64,000 nt of DNA from contig CM055896.1 in assembly GCA_029582155.1 (NCBI GenBank), forward strand, positions 4,781,598 through 4,845,597, given 5' to 3'. Each line of letters starts with the position of its first letter. Position 1 is the first letter of the stretch. The notes under the pieces were generated by a model. It was not told the origin of the DNA, did not search any database, and saw only the letters and a list, made by a program, of their open reading frames with translations. The DNA is from Panopea generosa (lineage: Eukaryota > Mollusca > Bivalvia > Adapedonta > Hiatellidae). Shown here one piece after another: positions 5,600 to 54,859 of the stretch. The position numbers and the translations under genes are program-made.

Positions 5600-7960
5600 G
5601 GAGGGTGAGTGGCTCAGAGAGGTACCATTGTATACAAATTTAAACAGGACCGAGTATTTTAATACATAGAAATGGGAGGGTGAGTGGCTCAGACAGGTAC
5701 CAAGGTATACTAGTTTAAACTAGGGTGAGTAGCTCAGACAGGTACCAAGATATACCAGTTTAAACTGGACAGAGTATTTTAATACATAGAAATGGGAGGG
5801 TGAGTTGTTCAAACAGGTACCAAGGTATACAAATTTAAACAGGACCGAGTATTTTAATACATAGAAATGGTAGGGTGAGTGGCTAAGACAGGTACCAAGG
5901 TATACCAGTTGAAACTGAACCGAGTATTTTAATACATAGATATGGGAGGGTGAGTGGCTCAGACAGGTACCAAGGTATACCAGTTTAAATTGGACCGAGT
6001 ATTTTAATACATAAAAATGGGAGGGTGAGTGGCTCAGACAGGTACCAAGGTATACCAGTATAAATGGGACCGAGTATTTTAATACATAGAAATGGGAGGG
6101 TGAGTGGCTCAGACAGGTACCAAGGTATACCTGTTTAAACAGGACAGAATATTTTAATACATAGAAATGGGAGGGCGAGTGGCTAAGACAGGTACCAAGG
6201 TAAACAAGTTTAAACAGGACCGAGTATTTAAATTCATAGAAATTGGAGGGTGAGTGTCTCAGACAGGTACCAAGGTATACCAATTTAAACTGGACCGAGT
6301 ATTTTAATACATAGAAATGGGATGGTGAGTGGCTCTGACAGGTACCAAAGTATACAAGTTTAAACAGGACTGAGTATTTTAATACATGGAAATGGGAGGG
6401 TGAGTGGCTCAGACAGGACCCAAGGTATACCAGTTTATACTGGACCAAGTATTTTAATACATAGAAATGGGAAGGTGAGTGGCTCAGACAGGTACCAAAG
6501 TATTCCAGTTTAAACAGGACCGAGTATTTTAATACATAGAAATGGGAGGGTGAGTGGCTCAGACAGGTACCAAGGTATACCAGTTTAAACTAGGGTGAGT
6601 GGCTCAGACAGGTACCAAGTTATACCAGTTTAAACTGGACCGAGTATTTTAATACATAGAAATGGGAGGGTGAGTGGCTAAAAAGGTAACAAGGTATACC
6701 AGTTTAAATTGGACCGAGTATTTTAATACATAGAAATGGGAGGGTGAGTGGATCAGACAGGTACCAAGGTATACCAGTTAAATTGGACCGAATATTTTAA
6801 TACATAGAAATGGGAGGGTGAGTGGATCAGACAGGTACCAAGGTATACCAGTATAAACAGGACCGAGTGTTTTAATACATAGAAATGGGAGGGTGAATGT
6901 CTCAGACAGGTACCAAGGTATACTAGTTTTATCTGGACCTAGTATTGTAATACATATAAATGGAACGGTGAGTTGCTCAGACAGGTACCAAAGTATACAA
7001 GTTTAAACTGGACCGAGTATTTTATTACATAGAAATGGAAGGGTGAGTAGCTCAGACAGGAACCAAGGAATACCTGTTTAAAGAGGACCGAGTATTTTAA
7101 TACATAGAAATGGCAGGGTGAGTGGCTCAGACATGTACCAAGGTAAACAAATCAAAACAGGACCGAGTATTTTAATACATAGAAATGGGAGGGTGAATGG
7201 CTTAGACAGGTACCAAGGTATACCAATTTAAACTGGACCGAGTATTTTAATACATAGAAATGGGAAGGTGAGTGGCTCAGACAGGTACCAAGCTATACAA
7301 GTTTAAACAGGACCGAGTATTTTAATACATAGAAATGGGAAGGTGAGTGGCTCAGAATGGTAGCAAGGTATACCAGTTTAAACAGGACCGAGTATTTTAA
7401 TACATAGAAATTGGAGGGTGAGTGGCTCAGACAGGTACTAAGGTATACCAGTATAAACAGGACCGAGTATTTTAATACATAGAAATGGGAGGGTGAGTGG
7501 CTCAGACAGGTACCAAGGTATACAAGTTTAAACAGGACCGAGTATTTTAATACATAGAAATGGGAGGGTGAGTGGCTTAGACAGGTACCAAGGTATACCA
7601 GTTTAAACAGGACCGAGTATTTTAATACATAGAAATGGGAGGGTGAGTGGCTCAGACAGGTACCAAGGTATACAAGTTTAAACAGGACCGAGTATTTTAA
7701 TACATAGAAATGGGAGGGGGTGGGGGTGGGGGGGGGGGGGGGGTGGCTGAGACAGTTACGAAGGGATACTAGTTTAAACTGGACCGAGTATTTTAATACA
7801 TAGAAATTGGAAGGTGAGTGGCTCTGACAGGTACCAAGGTATACAGATTTAAACAGGACCGAATATTTTAATACATCGAAATCGTAAGGTGAGTGGCTCA
7901 GACAGGTATTAAGGTATACCAGTTTAAACTGGACCGAGTATTTTAATACATCGAAATGGG
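5600..7960. repeat. Higher-order repeat of the 75-bp satellite, copy A
   Basis: Rare unit variants occur here in the same order as in the next ~2.3 kb. Matching landmarks are the CAGAGAGGTACCATTG variant at about 5616, a 45-bp short unit followed by CAAGATATACC near 5722, a second short unit followed by CAAGTTATACC near 6589, and a G-run at 7712-7743. The offset to copy B is 2359 bp for the first three and 2284 bp for the G-run, so copy B has one 75-bp unit fewer. Confidence 0.85.
7712..7743. repeat. G-run inside the satellite (copy A)
   Basis: The usual GGGAGGGTGAG stretch of one unit has expanded into about 30 bases that are nearly all G. On the minus strand it reads as a run of proline codons. 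The run could form a G-quadruplex. A second expansion in the duplicated block (9996-10027) shows the run was copied with the block and has since changed length. Confidence 0.9.
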
Positions 7961-10240
7961 AGGGTGAGTGGCTCAGAGAGGTACCATTGTATACAAATTT
8001 AAACAGGACCGAGTATTTTAATACATAGAAATGGGAGGGTGAGTGGCTCAGACAGGTACCAAGGTATACTAGTTTAAACCAGGGTGAGTAGCTCAGACAG
8101 GTACCAAGATATACCAGTTTAAACTGGACAGAGTATTTTAATACATAGAAATGGGAGGGTGAGTTGTTCAAACAGGTACCAAGGTATACAAGTTTAAACA
8201 GGACCGAGTATTTTAATACATAGAAATGGGAGGGTGAGTGGCTAAGACAGGTACCAAGGTATACCAGTTGAAACTGAACCGAGTATTTTAATACATAGAT
8301 ATGGGAGGGTGAGTGGCTCAGACAGGTACCAAGGTATACCAGTTTAAATTGTACCGAGTATTTTAATACATAAAAATGGGAGGGTGAGTGGCTCAGACAG
8401 GTACCAAGGTATACCAGTATAAATGGGACCGAGTATTTTAATACATAGAAATGGGAGGGTGAGTGGCTCAGACAGGTACCAAGGTGTACCTGTTTAAACA
8501 GGACAGAATATTTTAATACATAGAAATGGGAGGGCGAGTGGCTAAGACAGGTACCAAGGTAAACAAGTTTAAACAGGACCGAGTATTTAAATTCATAGAA
8601 ATTGGAGGGTGAGTGTCTCAGACAGGTACCAAGGTATACCAATTTAATCTGGACCGAGTATTTTAATACATAGAAATGGGATGGTGAGTGGCTCAGACAG
8701 GTACCAAGGTATACAAGTTTAAACAGGACTGAGTATTTTAATACATGGAAATGGGAGGGTGAGTGGCTCAGACAGGAACCAAGATATACCAGTTTATACT
8801 GGACAAAGTATTTTAATACATAGAAATGGGAGTGTGAGTGGCTCAGACAGGTACCAAAGTATTCCAGTTTAAACAGGACCGAGTATTTTAATACATAGAA
8901 ATGGGAGGGTGAGTGGCTCAGACAGGTACCAAGGTATACCAGTTTAAACTAGGGTGAGTGGCTCAGACAGGTACCAAGTTATACCAGTTTAAACTGGACC
9001 GAGTATTTTAATACATAGAAATGGGAGGGTGAGTGGCTAAAAAGGTAACAAGGTATACCAGTTTAAATTGGACCGAGTATTTTAATACATAGAAATGGGA
9101 GGGTGAGTGGATCAGACAGGTACCAAGGTATACCAGTTAAATTGGACCGAGTATTTTAATACATAGAAATGGGAGGGTGAGTGGATCAGACAGGTACCAA
9201 GGTATACCAGTATAAACAGGACCGAGTGTTTTAATACATAGAAATGGGAGGGTGAATGTCTCAGACAGGTACCATGGTATACTAGTTTAATCTGGACCTA
9301 GTATTGTAATACATATAAATGGAACGGTGAGTTGCTCAGACAGGTACCAAAGTATACAAGTTTAAACTGGACCGAGTATTTTATTACATAGAAATGGAAG
9401 GGTGAGTAGCTCAGACAGGTACCAAAGAATACCTGTTTAAAGAGGACCGAGTATTTTAATACATAGAAATGGCAGGGTGAGTGGCTCAGACATGTACCAA
9501 GGTAAACAAATTAAAACAGGACCGAGTATTTTAATACATAGAAATGGGAGGGTGAATGGCTTAGACAGGTACCAAGGTATACCAATTTAAACTGGACCGA
9601 GTATTTTAATACATTGAAATGGGAAGGTGAGTGGCTCAGACAGGTACCAAGCTATACAAGTTTAAACAGGACCGAGTATTTTAATACATAGAAATGGGAA
9701 GGTGAGTGGCTCAGAATGGTAGCAAGGTATACCAGTTTAAACAGGACCGAGTATTTTAATACATAGAAATTGGAGGGTGAGTGGCTCAGACAGGTACTAA
9801 GGTATACCAGTATAAACAGGACCGAGTATTTTAATACATAGAAATGGGAGGGTGAGTGGCTCAGACAGGTACCAAGGTATACCAGTTTAAACAGGACCGA
9901 GTATTTTAATACATAGAAATGGGAGGGTGAGTGGCTCAGACAGGTACCAAGGTATACAAGTTTAAACAGGACCGAGTATTTTAATACATAGAAATGGGAA
10001 GGGGTGGGGGGGGGGGGGGGGGGGTGGTGGCTGAGACAGTTACGAAGGGATACTAGTTTAAACTGGACCGAGTATTTTAATACATAGAAATTGGAAGGTG
10101 AGTGGCTCAGACAGGTACCAAGGTATACAGATTTAAACAGGACCGAGTATTATAATACATCGAAATCGTAAGGTGAGTGGCTCAGACAGGTACCAAGGTA
10201 TACCAGTTTAAACTGGACCGAGTATTTTAATACATAGAAA
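7961..10240. repeat. Higher-order repeat of the 75-bp satellite, copy B
   Basis: Nearly identical to copy A, with only scattered substitutions and one missing 75-bp unit just before the G-run at 9996-10027. The match fades after about 10240. A duplication of about 30 units within the array is the simplest explanation. Confidence 0.85.
9996..10027. repeat. G-run inside the satellite (copy B)
   Basis: Counterpart of the G-run at 7712, with slightly different length and interruption. The downstream sequence (CTGAGACAGTTACGAAGGGA) is the same in both, which proves common origin. Confidence 0.9.
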
Positions 10241-10929
10241 TGGGAGGGTGTGTGGCTCAGACAGGTTCCAAAGTATACCAGTTTAAACTGGACCTAGTAT
10301 TTTAATACATAGAAATTTGAGGGTGAGTGGCTCAGATAGGTATCAAGGTATACCAGTTTAAACTGGACCGGAATATTTTAATACATAGAAATGGGAGGGT
10401 GAGTGGCTAAGACAGGTACCAAGGTATACCAGTTTAAACTGAACCGAATATTTTTATACATAGAAATGGGAGGGTGAGTGGCTCAGACAGGTACCAAGGT
10501 ATACCCGTATAAACAGGACCGAGTATTTTAATACATAGAAATGGGAAGGTGAATGGCTCAGACAGGTACCAAGGTATACCAGTTTAAACTGGACCGAGTA
10601 TTTTAATACATAGAAATGGGAGGGTTAGTGGCTCAGAAAGGTACCAAGGTATACCAGTTTAAACTGGACCGAGTATTTTAATACATAGAAATGGGAGTGT
10701 GAGTAGCTCAGAAAGGTACCAAGGTAAACCAGTATAAACAAGACCGAGTATTTTAATACATATAAATGGGAGGGTGAATGGCTCAGACCGGTACCAAGGT
10801 ATACTAGTTTAATCTGGAACGAGTATTTTAATACATAGAAATGGGAGGGTGAATGGCTCAGACAGGTACCAAGGTATACCAGTTTAAACTGGACCGAGTA
10901 TTTTAATACATAGAAATGGGAGGGTGAGT

Positions 10930-12240
10930 GGCTTAGACAGGTACCTAGGTGTACTAGTTTAAACAGGACCGAGTATTTTAATACATAAAAATGGGAAGGC
11001 GAGTGGCTCAGACAGGTACCAAGGTATACCAGTTTAAACTGGACCGAGTATTTTTAATACATAGACATGGGAAGGTGAGTGGCTCAGACAGGTATCAAGG
11101 TATACCAGTTTAAACTGGACCGAGTATTTTAATACATAGAAATGGGAGGGTGAGTGGCTCAGACAGGTTCCAAGGTATACCAGTTTAAACTGGACCAAGT
11201 ACAAGTATTTTAATAGATAGAAATGGGAGGGTGAGTGGCTCAGACAGGTACCAAGGTATACCAGTTTAAACAGGACCGAGTATTTTAATACATAGAAATG
11301 AGAGTGTAAGTGGCTCAGACAGGTACCAAGGTATACCTAGTTTAAACTGGACCGAGTATTTTAATACATAGAATGGGAGGGTGAGTGGCTTAGACAGGTA
11401 CCTAGGTGTACTAGTTTAAACAGGACCGAGTATTTTAATACATAAAAATGGGAAGGCGAGTGGCTCAGACAGGTACCAAGGTATACCAGTTTAAACTGGA
11501 CCGAGTATTTAATACATGTATATAGAAATGGGAGGGTGAGTGGCTCAGACAGGTACCAATGTATACAAGTTTAAACAGGACCGAGTATTTTAATACATAG
11601 AAATGGGAGGGTGAGTGGCTCAGACAGGTACCACGGTATACCAGTTTAAACTGGACCTGGTATTTTAATACATAGAAATGGGAGGGTGAGTGGCTCAGAC
11701 AGGTACCTAGGTATACAAGTTTAAACAGGACCGAGTATTTTAATACATAGAAATGGGAAGGTGAGTTGCTCAAACAGGTACCAAGGTATACCAGTTTAAA
11801 CTGGACCGAGTACTTTTATACATAGAAATTGGATGGTGAGTGGCTCAGACAGGTATCAAGGTATATCAGTTTAAACTGGACCGAGTATTTTAATACATAG
11901 AAATAGGAGGGTGAGTGGCTCAGACAGGTACCAAGGTATACCAGTTTAAACTGGACCGAGTATTTTAATACATAGACATGGGAAGGTGAGTGGCTCAGAC
12001 AGGTATCAAGGTATACCAGTTTAAACTGGACCGAGTATTTTAATACATAGAAATGGGAGGGTGAGTGGCTCAGACAGGTTCCAAGGTATACCAGTTTAAA
12101 CTGGACCAAGTACAAGTATTTTAATAGATAGAAATGGGAGGGTGAGTGGCTCAGACAGGTACCAAGGTATACCAGTTTAAACAGGACCGAGTATTTTAAT
12201 ACATAGAAATGGGAGTGTAAGTGGCTCAGACAGGTACCAA
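10930..12240. repeat. Second higher-order repeat, about 455 bp (six units)
   Basis: The rare variant ACCTAGGTGTACTAG occurs at 10942 and 11400 (offset 458). An insertion variant reading ACCAAGTACAAGTATTTTAA occurs at 11194 and 12105 (offset 911, twice about 455). This part of the array therefore grew by duplicating six-unit blocks, independently of the 2.36-kb block. Confidence 0.7.
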
Positions 12241-12523
12241 GGTATACCAGTTTAAACTGGACCAAGTATTTTAATAGACAGAAATGGGAGGGTGAGTGGC
12301 TCAGACAGGTACCAAGGTATACCAGTTTAAACTGGACCGAGTATTTTAATACATAGAAATGGGAGGTTGAGTGGCTCAGACATGACCCAAGGTATACCAG
12401 TTTAAACTGGACCGAGTATTTTAATACATAGAAAAGTGAAGGTGAGTGGCTCAGACTGGTACCAAGGTATACAAATTTAAACAGTACCGATTATTAAATC
12501 GTAAAAATGGGAGGGTGAGTGGG

Positions 12524-19013: not shown

Positions 19014-19982
19014 TTAAGGTTCTTTTTCCATGTCTACTAGCTTCTTATTACAGGCTTCAACTTCTAACTGTAAAGTATGTTCGTGTTTTCTGCTTTCTTT
19101 AAGTTGTTCTAATGTTACCAAATCCTGTCTACGTTTCATTTTTGCCAGAGTGATTTCCTTTTGCAATTGATCTTTACTTTTTTGTAACGTGTCTATCTTC
19201 TTATTAGATAACTCAAGTTCTTGTGTTTGCTGTTGGACATTCTCATTGGCCTGGTTCAACTTCAGTTCTTTTTCTGATAGTTTTTCCTGTAAAATTCCCT
19301 TTGTACGAGCTAAATATTCGTTTCCCGACTTTAATTGTACTATCTCTCTATGCTGCTGATCGAGCGAGTTTTGCATTGTTTCAGTAGTGTCGTTATATGC
19401 TTGCTTAAAACTTTCTAGCTCAACTTGTTTTGCACTTATGTCATGTTTAAGTATTTCTTTCTCTTTCGTAATTTCATCATTCTGACATCGGGCTAATTTA
19501 ATGGCGTCATCAAAATTTTCTTGTTGCTTGTCAATTGTCTTTTGCATACTTTCACATTTTGAAGCATATTTCTCACAATTCTTTTCAGCTTCTTTCAATG
19601 CAAGGTCTTGTTGTTTAACAACCTTTTGCAAATCATCATTATCATGCTGGTTCTGGTCGATTTGTTCTCGAAACACTTGATGTTCGACTTTGGACCGTTG
19701 ATATATCTCTTCTAGATTTTTAAATTCACCAACAGCTTCATTGTATCTGGCGTTTATTTCTTCTATTTCATTTTGCTGCTGATTTATGATATCCTTCAGT
19801 TTTTCAATTTTCAACTTCAGTTTTTCATTCTTTGCTGCTTGTTGGGCCATAGAGGCAATAACAGCATTGCTGTTGCGAACTAATTCCTGATATTCAGATT
19901 GTTTTTCTTCTAAATGGCCTTTAAGTGTTGTTATCTCATGTTCAAGAACGACCTCGCGACTTTTGCCTTCTGAAAAGCGAGT
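19014..19982 (-). CDS. B-box/coiled-coil protein, exon 2 (coiled coil and C-terminus)
   Basis: Minus-strand exon of 969 bases ending in TAA, preceded by a pyrimidine-rich stretch and an AG acceptor at 19983-19984 (TTTTTCAG). It enters in phase 0. It encodes 322 residues, almost entirely heptad-like and rich in E, K, Q and L (for example EKLKLKIEKLKDIINQQQNE), so a long parallel coiled coil is predicted. In TRIM-type proteins such a segment drives dimerisation. No NHL, filamin, SPRY or other C-terminal domain follows the coiled coil; the frame simply stops. Joined to exon 1 across a ~3.6-kb intron in matching phase, the predicted protein is about 507 residues. An intervening exon cannot be excluded, and the frame could also belong to another coiled-coil gene. 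Confidence 0.65.
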   Translation of the reverse strand, partial: TRFSEGKSREVVLEHEITTLKGHLEEKQSEYQELVRNSNAVIASMAQQAAKNEKLKLKIEKLKDIINQQQNEIEEINARYNEAVGEFKNLEEIYQRSKVEHQVFREQIDQNQHDNDDLQKVVKQQDLALKEAEKNCEKYASKCESMQKTIDKQQENFDDAIKLARCQNDEITKEKEILKHDISAKQVELESFKQAYNDTTETMQNSLDQQHREIVQLKSGNEYLARTKGILQEKLSEKELKLNQANENVQQQTQELELSNKKIDTLQKSKDQLQKEITLAKMKRRQDLVTLEQLKESRKHEHTLQLEVEACNKKLVDMEKEP

Positions 19983-23183: not shown

Positions 23184-23598
23184 TTGTGAATATCTAATTA
23201 TCTAATATCTTAATCGGGCTCAATTAAATTTTAAACACGGGCTAATCCTAAATTACTTGTGAAGTAGAGTTAAAGAAACATATATAGTTCATTCACTCCA
23301 TTTGTTTAAAACCGTATTTCTCTATTTAAAAGGTTTATTGATATCGATCAATTTATTATGTACAGTATACAAAAATATGACCAGTCGTTGTAGTTTATTA
23401 ACTGTATGAGTGAGTATGGCCATGTTTAGTCAGTAAATAAAAATGCATAACAATAAGTAAACACATACTGCATTTTGCTTGTGGTTGATTTATTGTTTGT
23501 GTTTTATAAACAAACTTTATGTATTTGCCAATAATACAATATGTATGACTTCACCGAGCATGATCTTATTTAAATTATTGTATTAATAAACACATTAC

Positions 23599-24153
23599 CT
23601 TTGGTTCGTTCTTCATTTCTTTAAACTTTTGAGGCGCAACTGTCTTGTGTTGTTTCACATATGCATTACACAGGTTCATCGACGTATCTGATGTAGAATC
23701 TTTAACAACGTTACCTTTAGCAATGGCACCGGTCTCTTGACCTTGATCAACCAACTGATGGTCATAATTAAAAGCAAATCGGTTGTGGTGTTTAGTACAA
23801 ACTGCACACATTGCAACATGACAATCTACACAGTATTTTACAGCATCGTTAGTTTCATCTTTTTCCATGCATATTACACAAACCGATATGTCTTCTGACC
23901 CATGCTGGATTGTCTGGGAAAAATCAACATTCTTTTCTTTCATTTCCGCCATGTTTAGCAGTGTATGTGCCTTCATCGGTTTCAACATATTATGGTATTT
24001 AACACAAGGATCGCAAAACAGCTCGCTGCATTGTTCACAGAAGCATGAAGCTGAAACAAATGAATCATCCTTACGACACGGTGAACATATATAGGCCCGC
24101 TTTGCCTCCTGAACAACATCTATTCCGCCGTACAAATCGCTTCCTTCCGCCAT
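23599..24153 (-). CDS. B-box/coiled-coil (TRIM-like) protein, exon 1 with two B-box zinc fingers
   Basis: Begins with ATG at 24153 and runs 185 codons to a donor after AAG at 23599. The first zinc-binding cluster is C23, C26, C39, C42, C47, C50, H54 and H63. The second is C92, C95, C108, C111, C116, C119, H122 and H132. The spacing is that of tandem B-boxes in TRIM proteins. There is no RING finger ahead of them, so this is a RING-less TRIM relative; such proteins bind partners or act as scaffolds rather than as ubiquitin ligases themselves (family knowledge). Bivalves carry very many genes of this type, often linked to innate immunity. A TTTATAGC stretch about 55 bases upstream of the ATG could be a TATA-like element. 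It could also be transcribed with an extra upstream exon not seen here. Confidence 0.75.
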
Positions 24154-43135: not shown

Positions 43136-43384
43136 CAAAAGTTAAATCTATATTTATAGAAATCGATAAAAAGGTTTACTTAATTGTTTGTCTATAAGAA
43201 GTTTTCATAACATAACACCACATTTACCCAAGATGTGCGTAATCTTCTATGACAACATTACAAAATGGACAAATGATATAAATTCTCAAAATATAAAAAT
43301 ATTAAATTTGAATGTGAGTGCGAGCTATATGTTAAAATGAACCGTTACAAAAAATTAAAGATAGTGTATTACACAACTACTATC

Positions 43385-44122
43385 AGAGACATATATAGAT
43401 CAGAGGCATATATAGATCAGATGCATATATAGATCAGAGGCATATATAGATCAGAGGCATATATAGATCAGAGTCATATAAAGATCAGAGGCATATATAG
43501 ATCAGAGGCATATATAGATCAGAGACATATATAGATCAGAGGCATATATAGATAAGAGGCATATATAGATCAGAGGCATATTTAGATCAGAGCCATATAT
43601 AGATCAGAGGCATATATATTTCAGAGGCATACATAGATCAGAGGCATATATAGATCAGAGGCATACATAGATCAGAGGCATACATAGATCAGAGGCATAT
43701 ATAGATTAGAGGCATGTGTAGATAAGAGGCATATATAGATCAGAGGCATATATAGATCAGATGCATATATAGATCAGAGGCATACATAGATCCGAGGCAT
43801 ATATAGATTAGAGGCATATATAGATCAGAGGCATATATAGATTAGAGGCATATGTAGATAAGAGGCATATATAGATCAGAGGCATATATAGATCAGATGT
43901 ATGTATAGATCAGAGGCATACATAGATCAGAGGCATATATAGATCAGAGGCATATATAGATCAGAGGCATACATAGATCAGAGGCATATATAGATCAGAG
44001 GCATATATAGATCAGAGGCATATATAGATCAGAGGCATATATAGATCAGAGGCATATATATAGATCAGAGGCATATATAGATCAGAGGCATATATAGATC
44101 AGAGGCATATATAGATCAGATG
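43385..44122. repeat. 17-bp minisatellite, about 43 units
   Basis: The unit is GAGGCATATATAGATCA with frequent one-base variants (GATGCAT, CATACATAG, AGATTAGAGG). The array is interrupted by a few longer units and ends 380 bases upstream of the first HldE-like gene. Confidence 0.97.
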
Positions 44123-44502
44123 CTTGGACCAACAGAGGACTGTCTATTGGAACAAGACACGTTTAGCACCATTGGTAATGTATCCAGTGCGCAAGAAGTG
44201 CATTTCTCTAAATGAAGAACAGTACAAAATTAATACTTGTGTGAGACGTTTACCACTTTATTAGCCAGCTGCACCTTTGTTTGCAAGTCAGGTACGCTCC
44301 ATGCCCACGCAATATATAGAGTGTAAAGTGTTTACGCATGAAGGGGTGTTTAATAGGGACAAGTATACATTGTTCAGTCACCTTCATACAGCTATTGTGT
44401 ATAACTAATGTTATATGTGTGACATTTATGTATCGAATATTGAAGTAGATTAGTGTACATATAGTAATATACAGTTTACACGTTAGCAAGTTAGTCAATG
44501 CA
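44123..44502 (+). promoter_or_regulatory. Leader/promoter region of HldE-like gene 1
   Basis: No frame of note. The last ~60 bases (GTGTACATATAG, then GTTTACACGTTAGCAAGTTAGT) align with the leader of the second HldE-like gene (48280-48332), so the duplication included 5' flanking DNA. A CAATATATAGAG stretch near 44309 could serve as a TATA box (inference). An ATG at 44498 lies 5 bases before the gene start in another frame and opens a 29-codon overlapping uORF. Confidence 0.4.
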
Positions 44503-45978
44503 ATGGAAAACACGAATAAAGCACGTAAAATCGGATCAGAATTTCGTATACTACCATTTTTGGATAACTCGAGGCGGATTCTTGTAATCGGCCAGATTTG
44601 GCTGCACAGGACTGTGTGTGGAAACAGTCCAGGAATAGCAGATGATTTCCCGGGACCAATGTTTGATGAAGTGGCGGTCGACTATAGTTTGGGTGGCGTG
44701 GGCAATATTGTTGCAAACTTGAATGCAATGGGAGCGTCTGCGGATTTAATTACAGTCGTTGGTAGTGTTGGTGACGAAGGGACGATTGCAATAACGAATA
44801 ATGGTATCAGTTGCCAAGGATTCGTTATTTCTGATTCATATCGAATTTCTGTAGTATCGAAATACCGCTCCAAACAGTATAGTTTATTATTTTCTACCAA
44901 TAAGCGACACGGTGCGGATTTGGATGTAGATATGGCAAAAGAAACTGAAATCCTTGATAAATTCGTAAAGCTTATAACAACAAAAGTTTACGATTTGGTT
45001 GTCATCTCAGATGGCCGCCTTAAACATTCGAATGGTATACTCTCTGACAAGGCAGTTCGAGAGATTATACGCATGGCTTTAAATAAGGGCGTTCCAGTTT
45101 TGGTAGATTGTACACGAAATAATTGTGAAAAATACAAGGGAGCACTCATCGAAAGTAACAACGAAATACTGTTGAGGAATGTTACTGATGATGACGATGA
45201 CGCTGAAAAAATATGCAAGGAATTATGTGACCGGATAAATGCGGATGCGCGATCATCAACAACACAAAAAGGATCAGTTTTGTTATACAAAAACTTACAA
45301 AATGAAAAACAATTTGAACTAATTCCTGCATCTCCTTTGATAAATCGTGTTGATGATGACGTAACATGTGCCAATGACGTCGAGTTAGCCGCAAAGGCAT
45401 TCGGGATATCTTGTAAATGGTCAATGGAGGATACGTGTCAGTATGCCGTGACATGCGCAGACAAGGTAAGACAGTATGGAGGGGTTGCTCCTGTAAATAT
45501 GATTGAAGTTATACCAGACAAAGTGCTATATGACAAGCAAGAACTTCTTAATCTGAAAAGAATCATACCTAAAGATTATGTTGCCGTTCTGACGACGGGG
45601 TGTTTTGACATGTTACATCTTGGACATACAAGAGCGTTGCGTGAATTGAAAACTTTAGGTGACATTTTAGTGGTGGCCCTAAATTCGGATAGCTCTGTGA
45701 AGAAAAATAAAGGCAATACCAGACCTATATTTCCACTAAAGCAACGTCTAGAAATGTTGAAAGCTGTCAAATATGTTGATTTTATTGTTGTTTTTGACGA
45801 GAAGAGACCAGACTGGATCGTTGAAACATTAGATCCGGATATATTTGGAAAAGGGAATGAGTATGCAGAGGAAAGGATAAGAACATCTTTCCCAACCATA
45901 AGAAAATACCACGCAACTGACACTATTGACGGTGTCATAAGTACGTCTAAAATTATTGACAGAATCAAAAAGTTATAA
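44503..45978 (+). CDS. HldE/RfaE-like protein 1: degenerate sugar kinase fused to a nucleotidyltransferase
   Basis: Intronless, 491 residues, close to the length of bacterial HldE. In bacteria that enzyme phosphorylates heptose 7-phosphate (PfkB/ribokinase half) and then adenylylates heptose 1-phosphate to ADP-heptose. Residues about 22-330 follow the PfkB fold: SLGGVGNIVANLNAMGA at 62-78 and GVPVLVDCT at 196-204. Residues about 345-491 form the cytidylyltransferase-like half: GCFDMLHLGH with the HxGH motif (366-375), LNSDSSVKKNKG (393-404), FDEKRP (431-436) and STSKII (480-485), all as in active enzymes. The kinase half has lost hallmark residues. The bacterial GDxxLDRY motif is GQIWLHRT (30-37), DPK is DCT, and the GAGD catalytic loop is CAND (289-292). 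Phosphotransfer is therefore doubtful while adenylyl transfer looks possible. The ATG has a purine at -3 and G at +4. The sugar substrate in an animal is unknown. Confidence 0.92.
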   Translation: MENTNKARKIGSEFRILPFLDNSRRILVIGQIWLHRTVCGNSPGIADDFPGPMFDEVAVDYSLGGVGNIVANLNAMGASADLITVVGSVGDEGTIAITNNGISCQGFVISDSYRISVVSKYRSKQYSLLFSTNKRHGADLDVDMAKETEILDKFVKLITTKVYDLVVISDGRLKHSNGILSDKAVREIIRMALNKGVPVLVDCTRNNCEKYKGALIESNNEILLRNVTDDDDDAEKICKELCDRINADARSSTTQKGSVLLYKNLQNEKQFELIPASPLINRVDDDVTCANDVELAAKAFGISCKWSMEDTCQYAVTCADKVRQYGGVAPVNMIEVIPDKVLYDKQELLNLKRIIPKDYVAVLTTGCFDMLHLGHTRALRELKTLGDILVVALNSDSSVKKNKGNTRPIFPLKQRLEMLKAVKYVDFIVVFDEKRPDWIVETLDPDIFGKGNEYAEERIRTSFPTIRKYHATDTIDGVISTSKIIDRIKKL

Positions 45979-46655
45979 CTGAAGTTCCTGTCTTCGTCTT
46001 TCCAAGAACCAGATATTGTTAGTCGCGGATTTCTTCGGTAAGATGTGCCGTTGTGTACATTTTGAATTATAGTAAAGTGGTGCAGAGTTATAACCATTTT
46101 TACAAGCTAATTCTACTTAAATATGTATATACTATCATCATTTCAACAATAGTTTATTGACATTATCTAGTCAGTAATCATCTTATGTAATAGTCATGTA
46201 ATTTAGCCTTCGTATGTATCTAAGTATAGTATTCATTGAGTATAAATCAGATAGCCTTGCCTTATCAGGTAACTAATTATATAAATTGTATAAATCAGCT
46301 ATGCCATCCAACCTCGTTGTTTTCATATATTTCTCTCCATCTATTTAATAACACGACTTGAAGTGTTACAATATGGCGGCAAACAGATAGATAGCTTTCA
46401 AGAACAGACTACAAAAAATAGCAGATTCGAGTTTATTGAGACTGTTCATAAAAATATGCCAAAAAAAAAAAATTAAGCTCCATATTTTGTGTTCCCAAAG
46501 GATCTTTTTATCAGATATTTTATTTTTAGTGAGTTCATGTGAGTGAAGTGCGGTGGAATATTAAACGCGTCAGCAAATATTAGATGCACAGTTTCATCAT
46601 AAGATTCCACAAACTCGCTCAGTAAATTCAAATAAAATCAATATTCGATATTCTG
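45979..46655. other. 3' flank of HldE-like gene 1
   Basis: No gene seen. A segment at about 46595-46650 (TTCCACAAACTCGCTCAGTA) is similar to 54990-55040 beyond the 54-bp minisatellite. This suggests shared ancestry of the two flanks. Confidence 0.45.
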
Positions 46656-46659
46656 TGTG

Positions 46660-47030
46660 GTTCCAGGGAGCCATACGAGTGATGACAAAACTAGGCTCAC
46701 TGTCGCTCATGCATGTCGTAAGAAGCGACAATTTGAGTAATACAAATTTGCTAAAACTCTGCAGTAATCAAGGATCTAGGTTCATTCTGCATATTCATTT
46801 GTTGATTGTGTACACGTAGATTGAACCTAGAATCTTCATTCCTGTTTGCATCGAATAACCTATAATGTGTTGGTACGCCGTAAAACTCTACTAATTCATT
46901 CATTCATTCATTCATTCATTCATTCATTCATTCATTCATTCATTCATTCATTCGTTCGTTCGTTCGTTCGTTCGTTCGTTCGTTCGTTCTTCGTTCATTC
47001 ATTCATTAATTCATTTATTCATTCATTGAC
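46660..47030 (+). mobile_element. Retroposon-like repeat with (ATTC)n/(GTTC)n tail
   Basis: The body includes CATGTCGTAAGAAGCGACAA and TTGGTACGCCGTAAAACTCT and leads straight into a tail of ATTC units (46893-46951) and GTTC units (46952-46989). Body plus ATTC tail is typical of invertebrate SINE-like elements; no clear tRNA head was found. The open frame over the tail is only a tetranucleotide by-product. Confidence 0.6.
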
Positions 47031-48000
47031 CTAGCGTACAATTGAATTCAAACTATACCGTGGAGGTACTTGATTTAATTATCGATTTTTATTTGTCCAA
47101 ATCAAAAGAAAAAAGGCGGATGTTTATTTCTTTCGCCAAAAATATTTCGTCATTTTACCTAAAAGCAACCCCAGTTGCAGAGTTCAGATGATAATGTAAA
47201 AAAAATCGTACGGAAATATTGGACAGTAGATCTGATGAATTTGATATCAACCAGGAGAGAAGTGATGTACTACACGTTTACTTTGCAGCGGAAAGTTTAA
47301 ATAGCCGTTCACTTGAGTAGTCTCAAATTAAATATGTATATATCACCATCACGATCGGAATTACAAGTATTAAATTTGTTTGTTATGCATGTGTAAAGAA
47401 TGTCGAATCATACACAAATCTGATATGAAGTACGCCGGATTTGACATTCTTACACATGCACTAAAACAAGAAAAAACAAATTAATCCTGTAATAAATTAA
47501 ATTCTGTATCTTCGGTCTTGTAGAAATCTCCATCATTGCTATTGAGTGACTTTTATTAGTATTTTAATTATGAAATCGTTAGAAATAAAACACAAGACTG
47601 GTAGCTAATAACAGCACGTGACCTTAAATTATGTATTAATGTTTATTGAGAGCAAGGAATTATATAGAGAAGGAAAGGCAACTGATTGATATTTGTGAAC
47701 TTTCGCGTTTTTACGCAAAATCTCGCAATATCTCGTTTTCAATTATCTTAACATCTCAGGAACACAATTCAAATTTTTTACATTGAAGAATGAAATTCTC
47801 ATCAAAACAATACCATTCCCAGCAATATGTGTTAAAATTGTTATAGTACTTCCGATCATAAAATGTGTTTACTGCAGCTATAACATCAAATTACAAGAAA
47901 TTTTAATTCAAAGCTCACTGTCATTTAATTCAATATCATTATTCGTGATCGCTACATTTTAAATCATCTAAGATTACATACAACTTACATTTCAATTACA
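47031..48000. other. Intergenic DNA with a small inverted repeat
   Basis: TGCATGTGTAAAGAATGTC (about 47387) and GACATTCTTACACATGCA (about 47441) form an imperfect hairpin with 18-base arms, possibly a MITE remnant. No gene seen. Confidence 0.5.
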
Positions 48001-48002
48001 AG

Positions 48003-48332
48003 AAATCAGTTGCCTGTAAATTATGATTGCTTATTTATCAAATAACTAATCCTCCGTGTGCTATTTTATCAACATTTAGTCAGGAGATTAAGTTACCTAT
48101 CCTTCTACATATTAAGTCCTTGTTAAAGGATAACATAATACTTTACACGTGTTTGACCAGGACAGGTTTGGATACAAGTCCGATACGCTTCATGCACATA
48201 AAGCGATGTAAGTGAAGATATAAAGTGTGTATAATATACAGCGGAAATGAACACATATTCATACATGTGTAGATGTAGAGTCGTGTACATATAGCAGTTT
48301 GCAGGGTAAACTCGAACAAGTTGGTCATTACA
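48003..48332 (+). promoter_or_regulatory. Upstream region of HldE-like gene 2, containing a dispersed repeat
   Basis: Bases 48003-48125 (GAAATCAGTTGCCTGTAAAT onward, with CAACATTTAGTCAGGAGAT) are repeated at 59925-60045. The stretch from about 48280 to the start codon resembles the leader of the first HldE-like gene. GATATAAAGTGTG near 48217 could act as a TATA box (inference). Confidence 0.4.
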
Positions 48333-49814
48333 ATGGAAAAAAGGAATAATTCACGTGAAATCGGATCTGAATTCCGTATACTTCCATTTTTGGATAACTC
48401 GAGGCGTATTCTTGTAATTGGCCAACTTTGGCTGCACAGGACGGTGCGTGGAAACAGTCCAGGAATAGCAGATGATTTCCCGGGACCTATGTTTGATGAG
48501 GTGGCGGTCGATTATAGCTTAGGTGGCGTGGGCAGAATTGTTACAAACTTGAATGCAATGGGAGCGTCTGCAAATTTAGTTACGGTCGTTGGAAGTGATG
48601 ATGACGAAGGGACGATTGCACTAAAGAATAATGGTATCAGTTGCCAAGGATTCGTTATGTCTGCTTCATATCAACTTTCTTTAGTATCGAAATACCGATC
48701 CAGACAGAATAGATTATTATTTTCCACCAATAAACAACAAAGTAAAGAATTGAATGTAGCCGTGTCAAAAGAAACTGAAATTCTTCATAAGTTCGAAAAA
48801 CGTATAACAACAGAAGTTTACGATTTGGTTGTCATCTCAGATGGCCGCCTTAAACATTCGAATGGTATACTCTCTGACAAGGCTGTTCGAGAGATTATAC
48901 GAATGGCTCTAAATAAGGACGTTCCAGTTTTGGTAGATTGTACAGGAGATAATTGTGAAAAACACAAGGTGGCAACAATAATAAAATGTAACATCGAAAA
49001 CGTCAACGACATACTAAAAAGGGACATTTCTAAGGACCAGGACGCTGAAAAAGTATGCAAGGAGAAATGTGGCCTAGTTAATGCGGATTCGTGCGCATCA
49101 ACAACTCAAGAAGGGTTAGTATCGTTATACCAATACGCACAAAAAGAAGAAAAGTCAGTTCCTGGATCGCCTTCGATAAGTCGTGCTGGTGTTGACGTAA
49201 TGTGTGCCAATGACACCAAGTTGGCAGCAATGGCATTCGGAATAGCATGTAAATGGCCAATGGAGAATACGTGTCAGTATGCCATGACATTCGCAGACAA
49301 GGTAAGACAGAATGAAGGGGTTGCCCCTGTTAATATGATTGAAGTAATACCAGACAAAGTGCTATATGACAAGCAAGAGTTACTTAATCTGAAAAGAATC
49401 ATACCTAAAGATTATGTTGTCGTTCTGACGACGGGGTGTTTTGACATATTACATCTTGGACATATTAGACTTTTGCGTGAATTGAAAACTGTAGGTGACG
49501 TTTTAGTGGTGGCCCTAAATTCAGATAGCTCTGTGAAGAAAAACAAAGGCAATACCAGACCTATATTTCCGCTAAAGCAACGTCTGGAAATGTTGAAAGC
49601 TGTCAGATATGTTGATTTCATCGTCGTGTTTGACGAGAAGAAACCAACTTGGATTGTTGAAACCTTAGATCCGGATATATTCGGGAAAGCGAGCGAATAT
49701 ACAGAAGAAAGGATAAGAAAAACTTTCCCAACAATAAGAAAATACCACGCTACCGCGTATGACGATTCTGTGAGTACTTCTAAAATAGTAGGAAGGATAA
49801 TGAAGATAACATAG
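48333..49814 (+). CDS. HldE/RfaE-like protein 2: degenerate sugar kinase fused to a nucleotidyltransferase
   Basis: Intronless paralogue of the gene at 44503, 493 residues and roughly three quarters identical by eye. The ATG at 48333 is chosen because MEKRNNSREIGSEF aligns with the first residues of the other copy; the four codons upstream have no ATG. The two align without gaps over about residues 1-210 and 285-485 and differ mainly in 211-283, which is two residues longer here. The nucleotidyltransferase half is intact: GCFDILHLGH (368-377), LNSDSSVKKNKG (395-406) and STSKIV (481-486). The KGGDY-type motif near the end is KASEY here (KGNEY in copy 1). The same kinase losses are present: GQLWLHRT, DCTG, and VMCAND at the catalytic loop. 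Both genes point the same way, 2.35 kb apart. Flanking sequence is animal-type repeat DNA, so this is not bacterial contamination. Role unknown; ADP- or CDP-sugar synthesis is the family-based guess. Confidence 0.92.
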   Translation: MEKRNNSREIGSEFRILPFLDNSRRILVIGQLWLHRTVRGNSPGIADDFPGPMFDEVAVDYSLGGVGRIVTNLNAMGASANLVTVVGSDDDEGTIALKNNGISCQGFVMSASYQLSLVSKYRSRQNRLLFSTNKQQSKELNVAVSKETEILHKFEKRITTEVYDLVVISDGRLKHSNGILSDKAVREIIRMALNKDVPVLVDCTGDNCEKHKVATIIKCNIENVNDILKRDISKDQDAEKVCKEKCGLVNADSCASTTQEGLVSLYQYAQKEEKSVPGSPSISRAGVDVMCANDTKLAAMAFGIACKWPMENTCQYAMTFADKVRQNEGVAPVNMIEVIPDKVLYDKQELLNLKRIIPKDYVVVLTTGCFDILHLGHIRLLRELKTVGDVLVVALNSDSSVKKNKGNTRPIFPLKQRLEMLKAVRYVDFIVVFDEKKPTWIVETLDPDIFGKASEYTEERIRKTFPTIRKYHATAYDDSVSTSKIVGRIMKIT

Positions 49815-50157
49815 GCACCAGTGGTCGGTTTCACTAAACATCTCAAGCTGAGGTCTCAATTTCTCTATACCATGAATCATTACACGTTGAGTGACCACAC
49901 AGTTACGTTTGGAACACGTCTTAACTCATTAGCTAAGGATAATATGCAAAATGACGAATGTAAATGAAATAATATTTCATAAGTCTGAGTTTAGGAAAAT
50001 CTCAATTTTAGATGTTTAGTGAATCTGGGACAAGAATGATGCTGTCATATTGGCTCATAAGTACAACACGAAGAGGAAATCAACACTTACAGCGAACAAA
50101 CACACCCACATTGTCAAAATATGCTAAATGAAGATACTTTGGTATATTGTCACATTT
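49815..50157. other. Spacer between HldE-like gene 2 and the broken copy
   Basis: No frame, repeat or promoter could be supported. Confidence 0.4.
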
Positions 50158-50815
50158 TCTGAGAACAGTCCAGGATTGGCAGATGATTTCTCGGGACCAA
50201 TGTAATAACAGTCGTTTGAAGTGTTGTTGAAGATTGGATAATTGAACTAAATGATAAGGATGTCACTGCTCAAAATTCGTTATGTCTGCTTCATATGGAA
50301 CTTCTCTAGTATGGAAGTAACACTTCAAACGGAATGAATTACTATTATCAGTCAATAAACAACAACGGTTGGATTTGCAATGGAAAAAGTAACTGAAGTT
50401 CTCGACAAATTCGCAAAACTGACAACGGTAAATGTGTACGGTTCGACTGTCTTCTCAAAAAAATTAATCTTAAAGGATCATGGCTGAATATCATGTTGTA
50501 TTTCTGACGCTGCATGCATAGAAAACGATAGTGTATGCTTTAGTAGCGGCCTTAGATTCATATAAACATGTGAAGAGAAACAAAGACGAAACTAGACATA
50601 TGCTTATGCCGCAAAGGGAATGTTGAAAATTGTCAATTATGTTGATTTCATTATTGTTTAAGAAAAGAAACCAGTTTGGATTGTTGAAACATTTGATCTG
50701 TATATTCAGAAAAGGAAATGAGTATAAAGATGAAACATTAAGAGCTGTGTCCCTAACAATGGGACTATACCTCACAGCAGACTCTTCTGTCGGTGTCATA
50801 AGTACCTCTTAACAA
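50158..50815 (+). pseudogene. Broken third copy of the HldE-like gene
   Basis: Begins with AACAGTCCAGGATTGGCAGA, matching codon 41 onward of the intact genes. It continues in pieces: the AGTCGTT and TTCGTTATGTCTGCTTCATA segment, the CTCGACAAATTCGCAAAACT segment, and the C-terminal part (TATGTTGATTTCATTATTGT, then AAACCAGTTTGGATTGTTGA) up to GGTGTCATAAGTACCTCT. The N-terminus is missing. Two internal deletions remove most of the kinase half and the HxGH motif, and several stops and frame changes follow. About 0.65 kb of 1.48 kb remains. Some variants match copy 1 and others copy 2, so it did not simply arise from either. Together the three form a tandem same-strand cluster with one dead member. 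Confidence 0.88.
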
Positions 50816-51130: not shown

Positions 51131-51213
51131 AACAGTGCTAACCGCACAAATACTCAGAGAGATAAAATCGCTCAGTGGAATGATATTTTTCTTGCAAATT
51201 GTATATAATATAA

Positions 51214-54200
51214 TGAACAAAGCAGTTAACCCACAACTACTGAATGGAATAGTTACATCGCCACTACTGAACAGGACAGCTAACCCACCACTACTGAATG
51301 GAATAGCTACATCGCCACTACTGAACAGGACAGCTAACCCACCACTACTGAATGGAATAGCTACATCGCCACTGCTGAACAGGACAGCTAACCCACCACT
51401 ACTGAATGGAATAGCTACATCGCCACTACTGAACAGGACAGCTTACCCACCACTACTGAATGGAATAGCTACATCGCCACTACTGAACAGGACAGCTAAC
51501 CCACCACTACTGAATGGAATAGCTACATCGCCACTACTGAACAGGACAGCTAACCCACCACTACTGAATGGAATAGTTACATCGCCACTACTGAACAGGA
51601 CAGCTAACCCACCACTACTGAATGGAATAGCTACATCGCCACTACTGAACAGGACAGCTAACCCACCACTACTGAATGGAATAGCTACATCACCACTACT
51701 GAACAGGACAGCTAACCCACCACTACTGAATGGAATAGCTACATCACCACTACTGAACAGGAGAGCTAACCCACCACTACTGAATGGAATAGCTACATCA
51801 CCACTGCTGAACAGGACAGCTAACCCACCACTACTGAATGGAATAGTTACATCGCCACTGCTGAACAGGACAGCTAACCCACCCCTACTGAATGGAATAG
51901 CTACATCGCCACTGCTGAACAGGACAGCTAACCCACCACTACTGAATGGAATAGCTACCTCGCCACTACTGAACAGGACAGCTAACCCACCACTACTGAA
52001 TGGAATAGCTACATCGCCACTACTGAACAGGACAGCTTACCCACCACTACTGAATGGAATAGCTACCTCGCCACTACTGAACAGGACAGCTAACCCACCC
52101 CTACTGAATGGAATAGCTACATTGCCACTACTGAACAGGACAGCTAACCCACCACTACTGAATGGAATAGTTACATCGCCACTACTGAACAGGACAGCTA
52201 ACCCACCACTACTGAATGGAATAGCTACCTCGCCACTACTGAGCAGGACAGCTAACCCACCACTACTGAATGACATAGTTACCTCGCCACTACTGAACAG
52301 GACAGCTAACCCACCACTACTGAATGACATAGTTACCTCGCCACTACTGAACAGGACAGCTAACCCACCACTACTGAATGGAATAGCTACCTCGCCACTA
52401 CTGAACAGGACAGCTAACCCACCACTACTGAATGGAATAGCTACATCGCCACTACTGAACAGGACAGCTAACCCACCACTACTGAATGGAATAGTTACAT
52501 CGCCACTACTGAACAGGACAGCTAACCCACCCCTACTGAATGGAATAGCTACATCGCCACTACTGAACAGGACAGCTAACCCACCACTACTGAATGGAAT
52601 AGTTACCTCGCCACTACTGAACAGGACAGCTAACCCACCACTACTGAATGGAATAGCTACATCACCACTACTGAACAGGACAGCTAACCCACCACTACTG
52701 AATGGAATAGTAACATTGCCACTGCTGAACAGGACAGCTAACACACCACTACTGAATGGAATAGCTACATCGCCACTGCTGAACAGGACAGCTAACCCAC
52801 CACTACTGGATGGAATAGCTACATCGCCACTGCTGAACAGGACAGCTAACCCACCACTACTGAATGGAATAGTTACATCGCCACTGCTGAACAGGACAGC
52901 TAACCCACCCCTACTGAATGGAATAGCTACATCGCCACTACTGAACAGGACAGCTAACCCACCACTACTGAATGGAATAGCTACCTCGCCACTACTGAAC
53001 AGGACAGCTAACCCACCACTACTGAATGGAATAGCTACATTGCCACTGCTGAACAGGACAGCTAACCCACCACTACTGAATGGAATAGCTACATCGCCAC
53101 TGCTGAACAGGACAGCTAACCCACCACTACTGAATGGAATAGCTACATCGCCACTGCTGAACAGGACAGCTAACCCACCACTACTGAATGGAATAGCTAC
53201 CTCGCCACTGCTGAACAGGACAGCTTACCCACCACTACTGAATGGAATAGCTACCTCGCCACTACTGAACAGGACAGCTAACCCACCACTACTGAATGGA
53301 ATAGCTACATTGCCACTGCTGAACAGGACAGCTAACCCACCACTACTGAATGGAATAGCTACATCGCCACTGCTGAACAGGACAGCTAACCCACCACTAC
53401 TGAATGGAATAGCTACATCGCCACTGCTGAACAGGACAGCTAACCCACCACTATTGAATGGAATAGCTACATCGCCACTGCTGAACAGGACAGCTAACCC
53501 ACCACTACTGAATGGAATAGCTACATCGCCACTGCTGAACAGGACAGCTAACCCACCACTACTGAATGGAATAGCTACATTGCCACTGCTGAACAGGACA
53601 GCTAACCCACCACTACTGAATGGAATAGCTACATCGCCACTGCTGAACAGGACAGCTAACCCACCACTATTGAATGGAATAGCTACATCGCCACTGCTGA
53701 ACAGGACAGCTAACCCACCACTACTGAATGGAATAGCTACATTGCCACTGCTGAACAGGACAGCTAACCCACCACTACTGAAAGGAATAGCTACATCGCC
53801 ACTGCTGAACAGGACAGCTAACCCACCACTACTGAATGGAAAAGCTACCTCGCCACTGCTGAACAGGACAGCTTACCCACCACTACTGAATGGAATAGCT
53901 ACCTCGCCACTGCTGAACAGGACAGCTTACCCACCACTACTGAATGGAATAGCTACCTCGCCACTACTGAACAGGACAGCTAACCCACCACTACTGAATG
54001 GAATAGCTACATTGCCACTGCTGAACAGGACAGCTAACCCACCACTACTGAATGGAATAGCTACATCGCCACTGCTGAACAGGACAGCTAACCCACCACT
54101 ACTGAATGGAATAGCTACATCGCCACTGCTGAACAGGACAGCTAACCCACCACTACTGAATGGAATAGCTACATTGCCACTGCTGAACAGGACAGCTAAC

Positions 54201-54855
54201 CCACCACTACTGAATGGAATAGCTACATTGCCACTGCTGAACAGGACAGCTAACCCACCACTACTGAATGGAATAGCTACATCGCCACTGCTGAACAGGA
54301 CAGCTAACCCACCACTACTGAATGGAATAGCTACCTCGCCACTGCTGAACAGGACAGCTTACCCACCACTACTGAATGGAATAGCTACATCGCCACTGCT
54401 GAACAGGACAGCTAACCCACCACTATTGAATGGAATAGCTACATTGCCACTGCTGAACAGGACAGCTAACCCACCACTACTGAATGGAATAGCTACATCG
54501 CCACTGCTGAACAGGACAGCTAACCCACCACTACTGAATGGAATAGCTACATCGCCACTACTGAACAGGACAGCTTACCCGCCACTACTGAATGGAATAG
54601 CTACATCGCCACTACTGAACAGGACAGCTAACCCACCACTACTGAATGACATAGTTACCTCGCCACTACTGAACAGGACAGATAACCCACCACTACTGAA
54701 TGGAATAGTTACATCGCCACTACTGAACAGGACAGCTAACCCACCACTACTGAATGGAATAGCTACATCGCCACTGCTGAACAGGACAGCTAACCCACCA
54801 CTACTGAATGGAATAGCTACCTTGCCATATCTAAACAGAACAGTCAACCCGCCAT
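51214..54855. repeat. 54-bp minisatellite (two 27-bp halves), about 67 units, one frame open throughout
   Basis: The unit reads CTACTGAACAGGACAGCTAA then CCCACCA, followed by CTACTGAATGGAATAGCTAC then ATCGCCA. The two halves are themselves related, so the 54-bp unit arose from a 27-bp dimer. Since 54 is a multiple of three and no indels occurred, one plus-strand frame stays open from 51135 to 54857 and would encode 18-residue repeats (LLNRTANPPLLNGIATSP). Variants are few and shared by neighbouring units (CTG or CTA, ACATCG or ACCTCG, GCT or GTT, AAC or TAC). The first and last units are the most diverged. There is no signal peptide, flanking domain or good start: the upstream end of the frame lies in a SINE. 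It is most likely a non-coding minisatellite, though expression cannot be excluded. Confidence 0.95.
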
Positions 54856-54859
54856 AGCT

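Follow-up and report, generated by a model that had tools for sequence, protein, structure and literature searches.

Opposite active-site losses among HldE-like paralogues of the bivalve Panopea generosa

A stretch of 64,000 nucleotides from the bivalve Panopea generosa (the window; C3:4781598-4845597, contig CM055896.1) carries two intact genes, copies A and B, related to bacterial HldE, a fused enzyme in which a PfkB-type kinase is followed by an HxGH nucleotidyltransferase. A third intact and likewise intronless relative (L003; 484 amino acids, 38% identical to A) lies on C18. We found that A and B have lost the catalytic motifs of the kinase half and retain those of the nucleotidyltransferase half; in turn, the C18 gene keeps the core kinase motifs and has lost key residues of the nucleotidyltransferase half. 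The simplest reading, to which we give an even chance, is that complementary decay has separated a fused enzyme once more into two genes. We infer the enzyme activities, their substrates, a pathway shared by both products and a bacterial origin of the family.

Opposite Residue Losses in the Two Halves

Copy A (44503-45978, plus strand) is an uninterrupted, intronless frame of 491 amino acids starting with ATG, and copy B (48333-49814, plus strand) is an equally uninterrupted, intronless frame of 493 amino acids from its likely ATG at 48333, open further upstream to a TTG at 48321 (497 amino acids, 48321-49814). The two proteins are 77% identical. For both, the best NCBIfam model is bifunctional HldE (NF008454), matched along almost their entire extent (E 7.9e-51 for A and 2.1e-55 for B), although its equivalog cut-off of 521 bits is not reached by A (173.1), B (188.2) or the C18 gene (269.9). 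Each chain holds the PfkB/HldA-like half first (44569-45510 in A, 48402-49346 in B) and the nucleotidyltransferase half second (45583-45969 in A, 49413-49802 in B, where FGKA stands for the FGKG of A). The latter is matched by Pfam PF01467 (E 4.6e-19 and 1.5e-18 for A and B, respectively) and by the NCBIfam model of HldE domain II, with 121 and 125 bits, the general model giving 65 and 66. As for the Pfam PfkB model, it gives 2.2e-9 for B and 1.9e-5 for A, the latter match (24.6 bits) being slightly below the cut-off of 25.8. The sequence-only reading of the window, which had described two complete frames in animal DNA with PfkB and HxGH halves in the HldE order, is thus confirmed by the Pfam and NCBIfam searches. 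It had further taken them for a pair of bacterial-type HldE/RfaE-like genes; family and order hold, yet the PfkB halves are devoid of catalytic motifs, and we rejected the view of both frames as full HldE on this ground.

For comparison we took the best 80 of at least 589 bacterial and the best 80 of at least 600 viral stretches, ranked by likeness to the C18 gene. Full-length frames were obtained from 151 of these 160 loci (78 bacterial, 73 viral; nine were dropped), and 34 motif positions were tabulated across them. In the kinase half of both A and B, GD has become GQ, LD has become LH, DPK has become DCT and GAGD has become CAND. Hence GQIWLH (44590-44607, plus strand) in A and GQLWLH (48420-48437, plus strand) in B occupy the position of the bacterial GDxxLD, and CAND (45367-45378 in A, 49203-49214 in B, both plus strand) that of GAGD. 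At D22, D26, P191, K192, G281 and G283, A and B possess Q, H, C, T, C and N, while the C18 gene has the bacterial residue at all six. These positions hardly vary among the homologues: D22 and D26 are Asp in all 78 bacterial rows and in 72 (one gap) and 73 of the 73 viral rows, G281 and G283 are Gly in every bacterial and viral row, P191 is invariant in the bacterial set, and K192 is Lys in 76 of its 78 rows and Arg in two.

The nucleotidyltransferase half presents the opposite picture. HxGH is present in all three proteins (as HLGH at 45616-45627 in A and 49452-49463 in B, plus strand). A and B additionally retain KG..RP (KGNTRP, 45709-45726 and 49545-49562, plus strand), the K of VKG and the S and T of STT (STSK, 45940-45951 and 49773-49784, plus strand), the third position of which is S, as in 14 of the 78 bacteria. 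At K395, R399, K442, S471 and T472, where A and B carry the bacterial residues, the C18 gene has E, M, E, R and K; its KG..RP motif is therefore without the K and R, and STT is replaced by RKS (RKSD). No bacterial row departs from K395 or R399, and R399 is Arg in 64 of the 73 viral ones. K442 and S471 are each kept in 77 of 78 bacterial rows (one gap), and T472 is Thr in 75 (two Ser, one gap). The scan patterns that yielded the homologues were built on nucleotidyltransferase stretches, so the conservation of columns such as N386, D388 and K442 comes partly from sample selection; K395, R399, S471 and T472 lie outside these patterns.

The same contrast emerges from the columns that are near-universal in both sets (31 in the kinase half and 27 in the nucleotidyltransferase half), of which A has lost 18 and 4, B 18 and 5, and the C18 gene 6 and 8, respectively (Fisher p for the contrast with C18 0.029 for A and 0.040 for B); the alignment is uncertain at gaps near kinase columns 157-166 and 207-211, where single counts may shift. 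The worst bacterial row lacks 3 of the 31 kinase columns and, when L093 is omitted, 3 of the 27 nucleotidyltransferase columns; the nine nucleotidyltransferase losses of L093 are all gaps in a truncated frame that ends at the contig end. In the worst viral rows, 6 kinase columns are lost, and 3 nucleotidyltransferase columns if one mostly-gap row is omitted. The C18 nucleotidyltransferase half and the kinase halves of A and B thus lie far beyond the range of the homologues.

Selection and Predicted Folds

The ratio of nonsynonymous to synonymous substitution (omega) between A and B is 0.41 overall (95% interval 0.31-0.55). It is 0.22 (0.12-0.37) in the nucleotidyltransferase half and 0.54 (0.38-0.77) in the kinase half, reaching 0.65 (0.39-1.07) across kinase residues 201-336. 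The difference between the halves is significant by permutation (p 0.004), and with another alignment and a second counting method the values stay at 0.22-0.29 for the nucleotidyltransferase and 0.54-0.58 for the kinase. When neutral drift of A was simulated to half the A-B synonymous divergence (dS), a mean of 7.9 stops arose, with a minimum of 2 in 300 runs; neither A nor B has any. Open frames and omega together therefore indicate that both copies are kept by selection, most strongly in the nucleotidyltransferase half.

AlphaFold2 models of A and the C18 protein, built with 61 sequences, are confident, with a mean predicted local distance difference test score (pLDDT) of 86.7 and 91.4, respectively. 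The best match in the PDB was for both the HldA of Burkholderia (E 4.3e-21 and TMt 0.80 for A; 2.6e-25 and 0.84 for C18). CAND (residues 289-292) of the A model opens a helix at 290-303, and GAGD (281-284) of the C18 model opens one at 282-295. The degenerate kinase half of A is accordingly predicted to fold still, from an alignment which includes intact homologues and in this way favours a folded prediction.

A Proposed Split of the Fused Enzyme

The kinase step of HldE places a phosphate on C1 of heptose 7-phosphate; in a later step the enzyme links heptose 1-phosphate to adenosine monophosphate, and its nucleotidyltransferase half accepts beta-mannose 1-phosphate too, as outlined in PMC10948575. 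We propose that an HldE-type bifunctional gene entered the animal lineage long ago, most likely from a bacterium, that it was without introns (lost or never present), and that it then multiplied, after which decay would have struck opposite halves in different copies. A and B would have kept a working HxGH nucleotidyltransferase, with a dead PfkB kinase that still folds and serves as a scaffold or for dimerisation, and the C18 gene would have kept the kinase core next to a dead nucleotidyltransferase active site. In such a scheme, the C18 product may phosphorylate C1 of heptose 7-phosphate or a related sugar and, after removal of a phosphate, A and B may join the sugar 1-phosphate to a nucleoside monophosphate taken from a nucleoside triphosphate (NTP), so that the two gene types together would do the job of one bacterial HldE. 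By a rough estimate, the kinase of A and B is very probably dead and the nucleotidyltransferase of the C18 protein highly likely so; the nucleotidyltransferase of A and B is probably active, and for the kinase of the C18 protein activity seems somewhat more plausible than inactivity. That duplication undid a gained fusion without cutting it, that both gene types are now required, and that activated heptose is among the animal's own products is put forward tentatively, at slightly less than even confidence.

The Arg that precedes STT in the (F/L)XXGRSTT motif is said in commentaries on Tang et al. 2024 to go with a wide NTP range (STTR5 type). In A this residue is I, and in B it is V. As the present division of labour, a nucleotidyltransferase without the wide-NTP Arg (A and B) and a kinase (C18) are most likely. 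The nucleotide-sugar synthesis put forward in the sequence-only reading remains plausible for the nucleotidyltransferase half, yet with a catalytically degenerate kinase half A and B are not HldE of the ordinary bifunctional kind.

Several observations weigh against a split into complementary halves. The C18 kinase losses (6/31) exceed those of every bacterial row and equal those of the worst viral row; KG in DYxKG has become CS, and K109I, Q118L and E125R are further changes. The kinase may thus have another substrate or be weak, and these changes lower our confidence in its action on heptose 7-phosphate. The nucleotidyltransferase losses of A and B, in turn, fall slightly outside the homologue range, with changes at N357, T427, D445 (E in both) and G453, and in B also at G443 (A). 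When all columns conserved in 95% of bacteria are counted, the kinase and nucleotidyltransferase losses are 30 and 8 for A and 14 and 12 for C18, and the contrast is borderline (p 0.054). Within the C18 protein the two halves are alike, with 37 of 51 and 19 of 31 columns kept (p 0.33). Because of these last two results, the case rests more on the identity of the changed residues than on totals. Finally, the kinase half of A and B is still constrained (omega below 1) and may have a role.

The pathway partners add to this side of the balance. No genome match at E 0.001 was found for GmhA (TIGR00441; SIS_2, PF13580), nor was a GT9 heptosyltransferase found, in an exon-by-exon search that is weak for genes split by introns. 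Since neither partner was found, a heptose pathway is a step that we infer. Their absence itself is weak evidence, as the search went exon by exon and PF01467 returned only one place (C14) beyond the HldE-like family, where an animal would be expected to have more genes for nucleotidyltransferases. A genome search for HldD turned up two intronless genes of an epimerase-like kind, neither of them specific to HldD. These are frames of 310 amino acids for sugar epimerases/dehydratases dependent on nicotinamide adenine dinucleotide (NAD), positioned at 1021-1953 of L190 (C8) and at 1021-1953 of L191 (C7), both on the minus strand. They are 86% identical to each other, and the best phage match of the C8 frame, in cyanobacterial phages, is 34.5% identical. 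They possibly represent another bacterial-type nucleotide-sugar gene.

The failure to find GmhA and GT9 also fits the view that A and B are nucleotidyltransferases now acting on a different sugar or alcohol phosphate and that C18 encodes a sugar kinase with a different substrate, with no joint work and no heptose. So do the changed conserved residues of the C18 kinase and the large divergence from bacteria, to which A is on average 23% identical over the kinase half and 37% over the nucleotidyltransferase half. In a phmmer search, the nucleotidyltransferase half of A matched ethanolamine-phosphate cytidylyltransferase (3elb) at 4.8e-19, near its best match, the 'putative cytidylyltransferase' 5x9q (6.6e-20). 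We take 5x9q to be of the bacterial HldC type, HldC being the name of the separate bacterial heptose nucleotidyltransferase. However, the HldE and domain II models are the best ones for these proteins, the fusion retains its order and length, and heptose enzymes have been reported from molluscs, according to a commentary on Tang et al. 2024. We regard such a change of substrates as unlikely.

Family Members and Genome Setting

C3 is 97.8 Mb long, in a genome of 1.474 Gb assembled in 39 contigs. A whole-genome search with A identified at least eight places, namely A, B, the C18 frame, two pieces on C7, two pieces on C3 and a copy right after B, while the C18 protein identified at least five and none additional; such counts are lower bounds. 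The HldA-domain model matched the three intact genes only. The copy right after B (about 50137-50809, plus strand) is a decayed one, found as pieces with stops and frame changes. The two C7 pieces belong to a single decayed copy, whose nucleotidyltransferase half is 61% identical to A and 43% to C18 (102 residues), and which is therefore of the A/B type. The gene pair noted at first sight is intact in both members, yet it is part of a larger family, with the C18 gene, the decayed copy after B and the C7 and C3 pieces.

As for the C3 pieces, each lies in one of two 3.36-kb segments of 99.67% identity (C3:85900-89256, L006; C3:4686527-4689883, L007), which are in opposite orientation, 4.6 Mb apart, the second about 92 kb ahead of the window. 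DNA alignment of A (44442-45917) with B (48272-49753) by blastn covers the frame and about 60 bases upstream, and the flanks are otherwise unaligned. The alignment stops there although dS is only about 0.3, which may reflect a transcript-like or small duplication unit. Long minus-strand frames (45576-46097, 49412-49846 and 50491-50799) lie opposite the nucleotidyltransferase half of A, of B and of the decayed third copy, and probably arise as a side effect of the codons on the sense strand.

Satellite arrays occupy 1-12522, 43382-44120 and 51223-54827 of the window, i.e., both sides of the genes. One satellite, with a 54-base unit (66.8 copies, 96% matches), is open in one frame for 1240 codons (51135-54857), without a Pfam match. 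A dispersed repeat at 46653-46901 (plus strand) also flanks the C18 gene twice, the window repeat being 72% and 75% identical to those two copies over 296 and 284 columns; the repeat appears to be SINE-like (resembling a short interspersed element). Content of an ordinary animal type includes, on the minus strand, a B-box zinc-finger frame (23575-24153; PF22586, 7.1e-10) and a frame that looks coiled-coil-like by eye (19014-19850, no Pfam match).

Origin of the Family

Trees were computed from 154 rows thinned by hand, a quick one with 86 rows and a careful one with 57, both comprising bacterial and viral homologues and no eukaryotic relatives. A, B and the C18 gene form a single clade on a long stem, with support of 99 in the quick tree and 100/99 in the careful one. 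The quick tree places the animal clade on the bacterial side, adjoining a long-branched row of uncultured Bacilli (L069; support 94), and in the careful tree L069 is found elsewhere, away from the animal clade. As this neighborhood appears in the quick tree only, no donor is supported. All three intact genes are intronless, which suggests that their ancestor was too, and the family's origin is most simply explained by one ancient gain. The lateral gain proposed earlier from the letters thus appears likely from gene structure, from a position inside the bacterial HldE sampling and from the well-supported clade, yet the donor is without support and the trees cover bacterial and viral homologues.

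Phage and plasmid searches detected no close donor, all records (69, 65, 71 and 53) being below 60% identity, with 22.8-47.5% among the 120 matches listed. In viral contigs, 4 stretches matched a pattern in a single-protein scan and 84 did so when the three animal proteins alone were used; none of them encodes a relative. By those patterns, nothing in the scanned collection points to a viral carrier of the animal-type gene.

Old eukaryotic inheritance, within protostomes or wider, would agree with the long stem and with the lack of a settled place among bacteria, and a commentary on Tang et al. 2024 mentions heptose enzymes in Arthropoda, Mollusca and dinophytes. It is compatible with the loss of opposite halves. 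Against it stand the three intact genes, intronless and located inside the bacterial HldE sampling, in trees of bacterial and viral homologues, and we consider it improbable. Lateral gain followed by complementary decay remains our preferred reading, also when set against full HldE enzymes with an unusual yet working kinase site in A and B. The Asp of GAGD is retained in CAND and omega of the kinase half is below 1; however, neither Asp of GDxxLD remains, nor do the P and K of DPK or either Gly of GAGD, although these residues are conserved in 76 to 78 of the 78 bacterial rows and in 70 to 73 of the 73 viral ones, so that a working kinase there is very improbable. Equally remote is that the genes are functionless, decaying relics or bacterial contamination: several family copies are indeed decayed, yet omega is 0.41 (0.31-0.55) with no stops in A or B, and contamination, being very unlikely in view of the large, chromosome-scale contigs, the flanking satellites and the dispersed repeat common to the window and the C18 copy, was rejected.

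Relation to Known Systems and Meaning

A and B share with bacterial HldE (RfaE; NF008454) the domain order, the full-length match and the HxGH, NSD, KG..RP and R407 signatures, and the C18 protein shares with it GDxxLD, DPK and GAGD. The animal copies differ from it in scoring 173-270 bits against the cut-off of 521, and in that no intact copy has both active sites. In Burkholderia and some other bacteria, the heptose kinase (HldA) and the nucleotidyltransferase are encoded by separate genes, as stated in PMC10948575. Two activities are thereby distributed over two genes, as we propose for the animal copies, and Burkholderia HldA is the best PDB match of both models. Unlike these separate bacterial enzymes, the animal proteins each retain the other half in a degenerate state.

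Heptose enzymes in animals as such are not new. One commentary on Tang et al. 2024 places them in archaea, in viruses and in some eukaryotes, where functional ones are reported, and states that viruses and eukaryotes lack the phosphatase; the authors' own commentary counts Arthropoda and Mollusca among the producers of nucleoside diphosphate (NDP)-heptose and confines ALPK1 and TIFA homologues to vertebrates. Complementary loss in animal HldE was not found, by title and abstract opening, among the top-ranked papers listed in the literature searches, and a term search of the main text of a compendium on horizontal gene transfer (PMC13342648) gave no 'hlde', 'heptose' or 'rfae'. A further record, PMC4691232, deals with a GHMP kinase and was set aside as not informative for the HldE-like copies. 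The new point is that paralogues of a fused enzyme have opposite active-site losses, which is unusual and directly testable.

The family is a clear example, open to assay, of how genes probably gained from bacteria can subfunctionalise by losing active sites; a single genome contains two intact genes of the A type and one of the C18 type together with their decayed sisters. If our reading is true, it would represent complementary degeneration inside a laterally gained fusion enzyme, in an animal that itself makes a molecule which vertebrates sense as foreign. If the enzymes work, an invertebrate would make nucleotide-activated sugars of a kind that vertebrates read as a sign of microbes, and this would bear on the way in which ALPK1 sensing could have arisen only where self-made heptose is absent.

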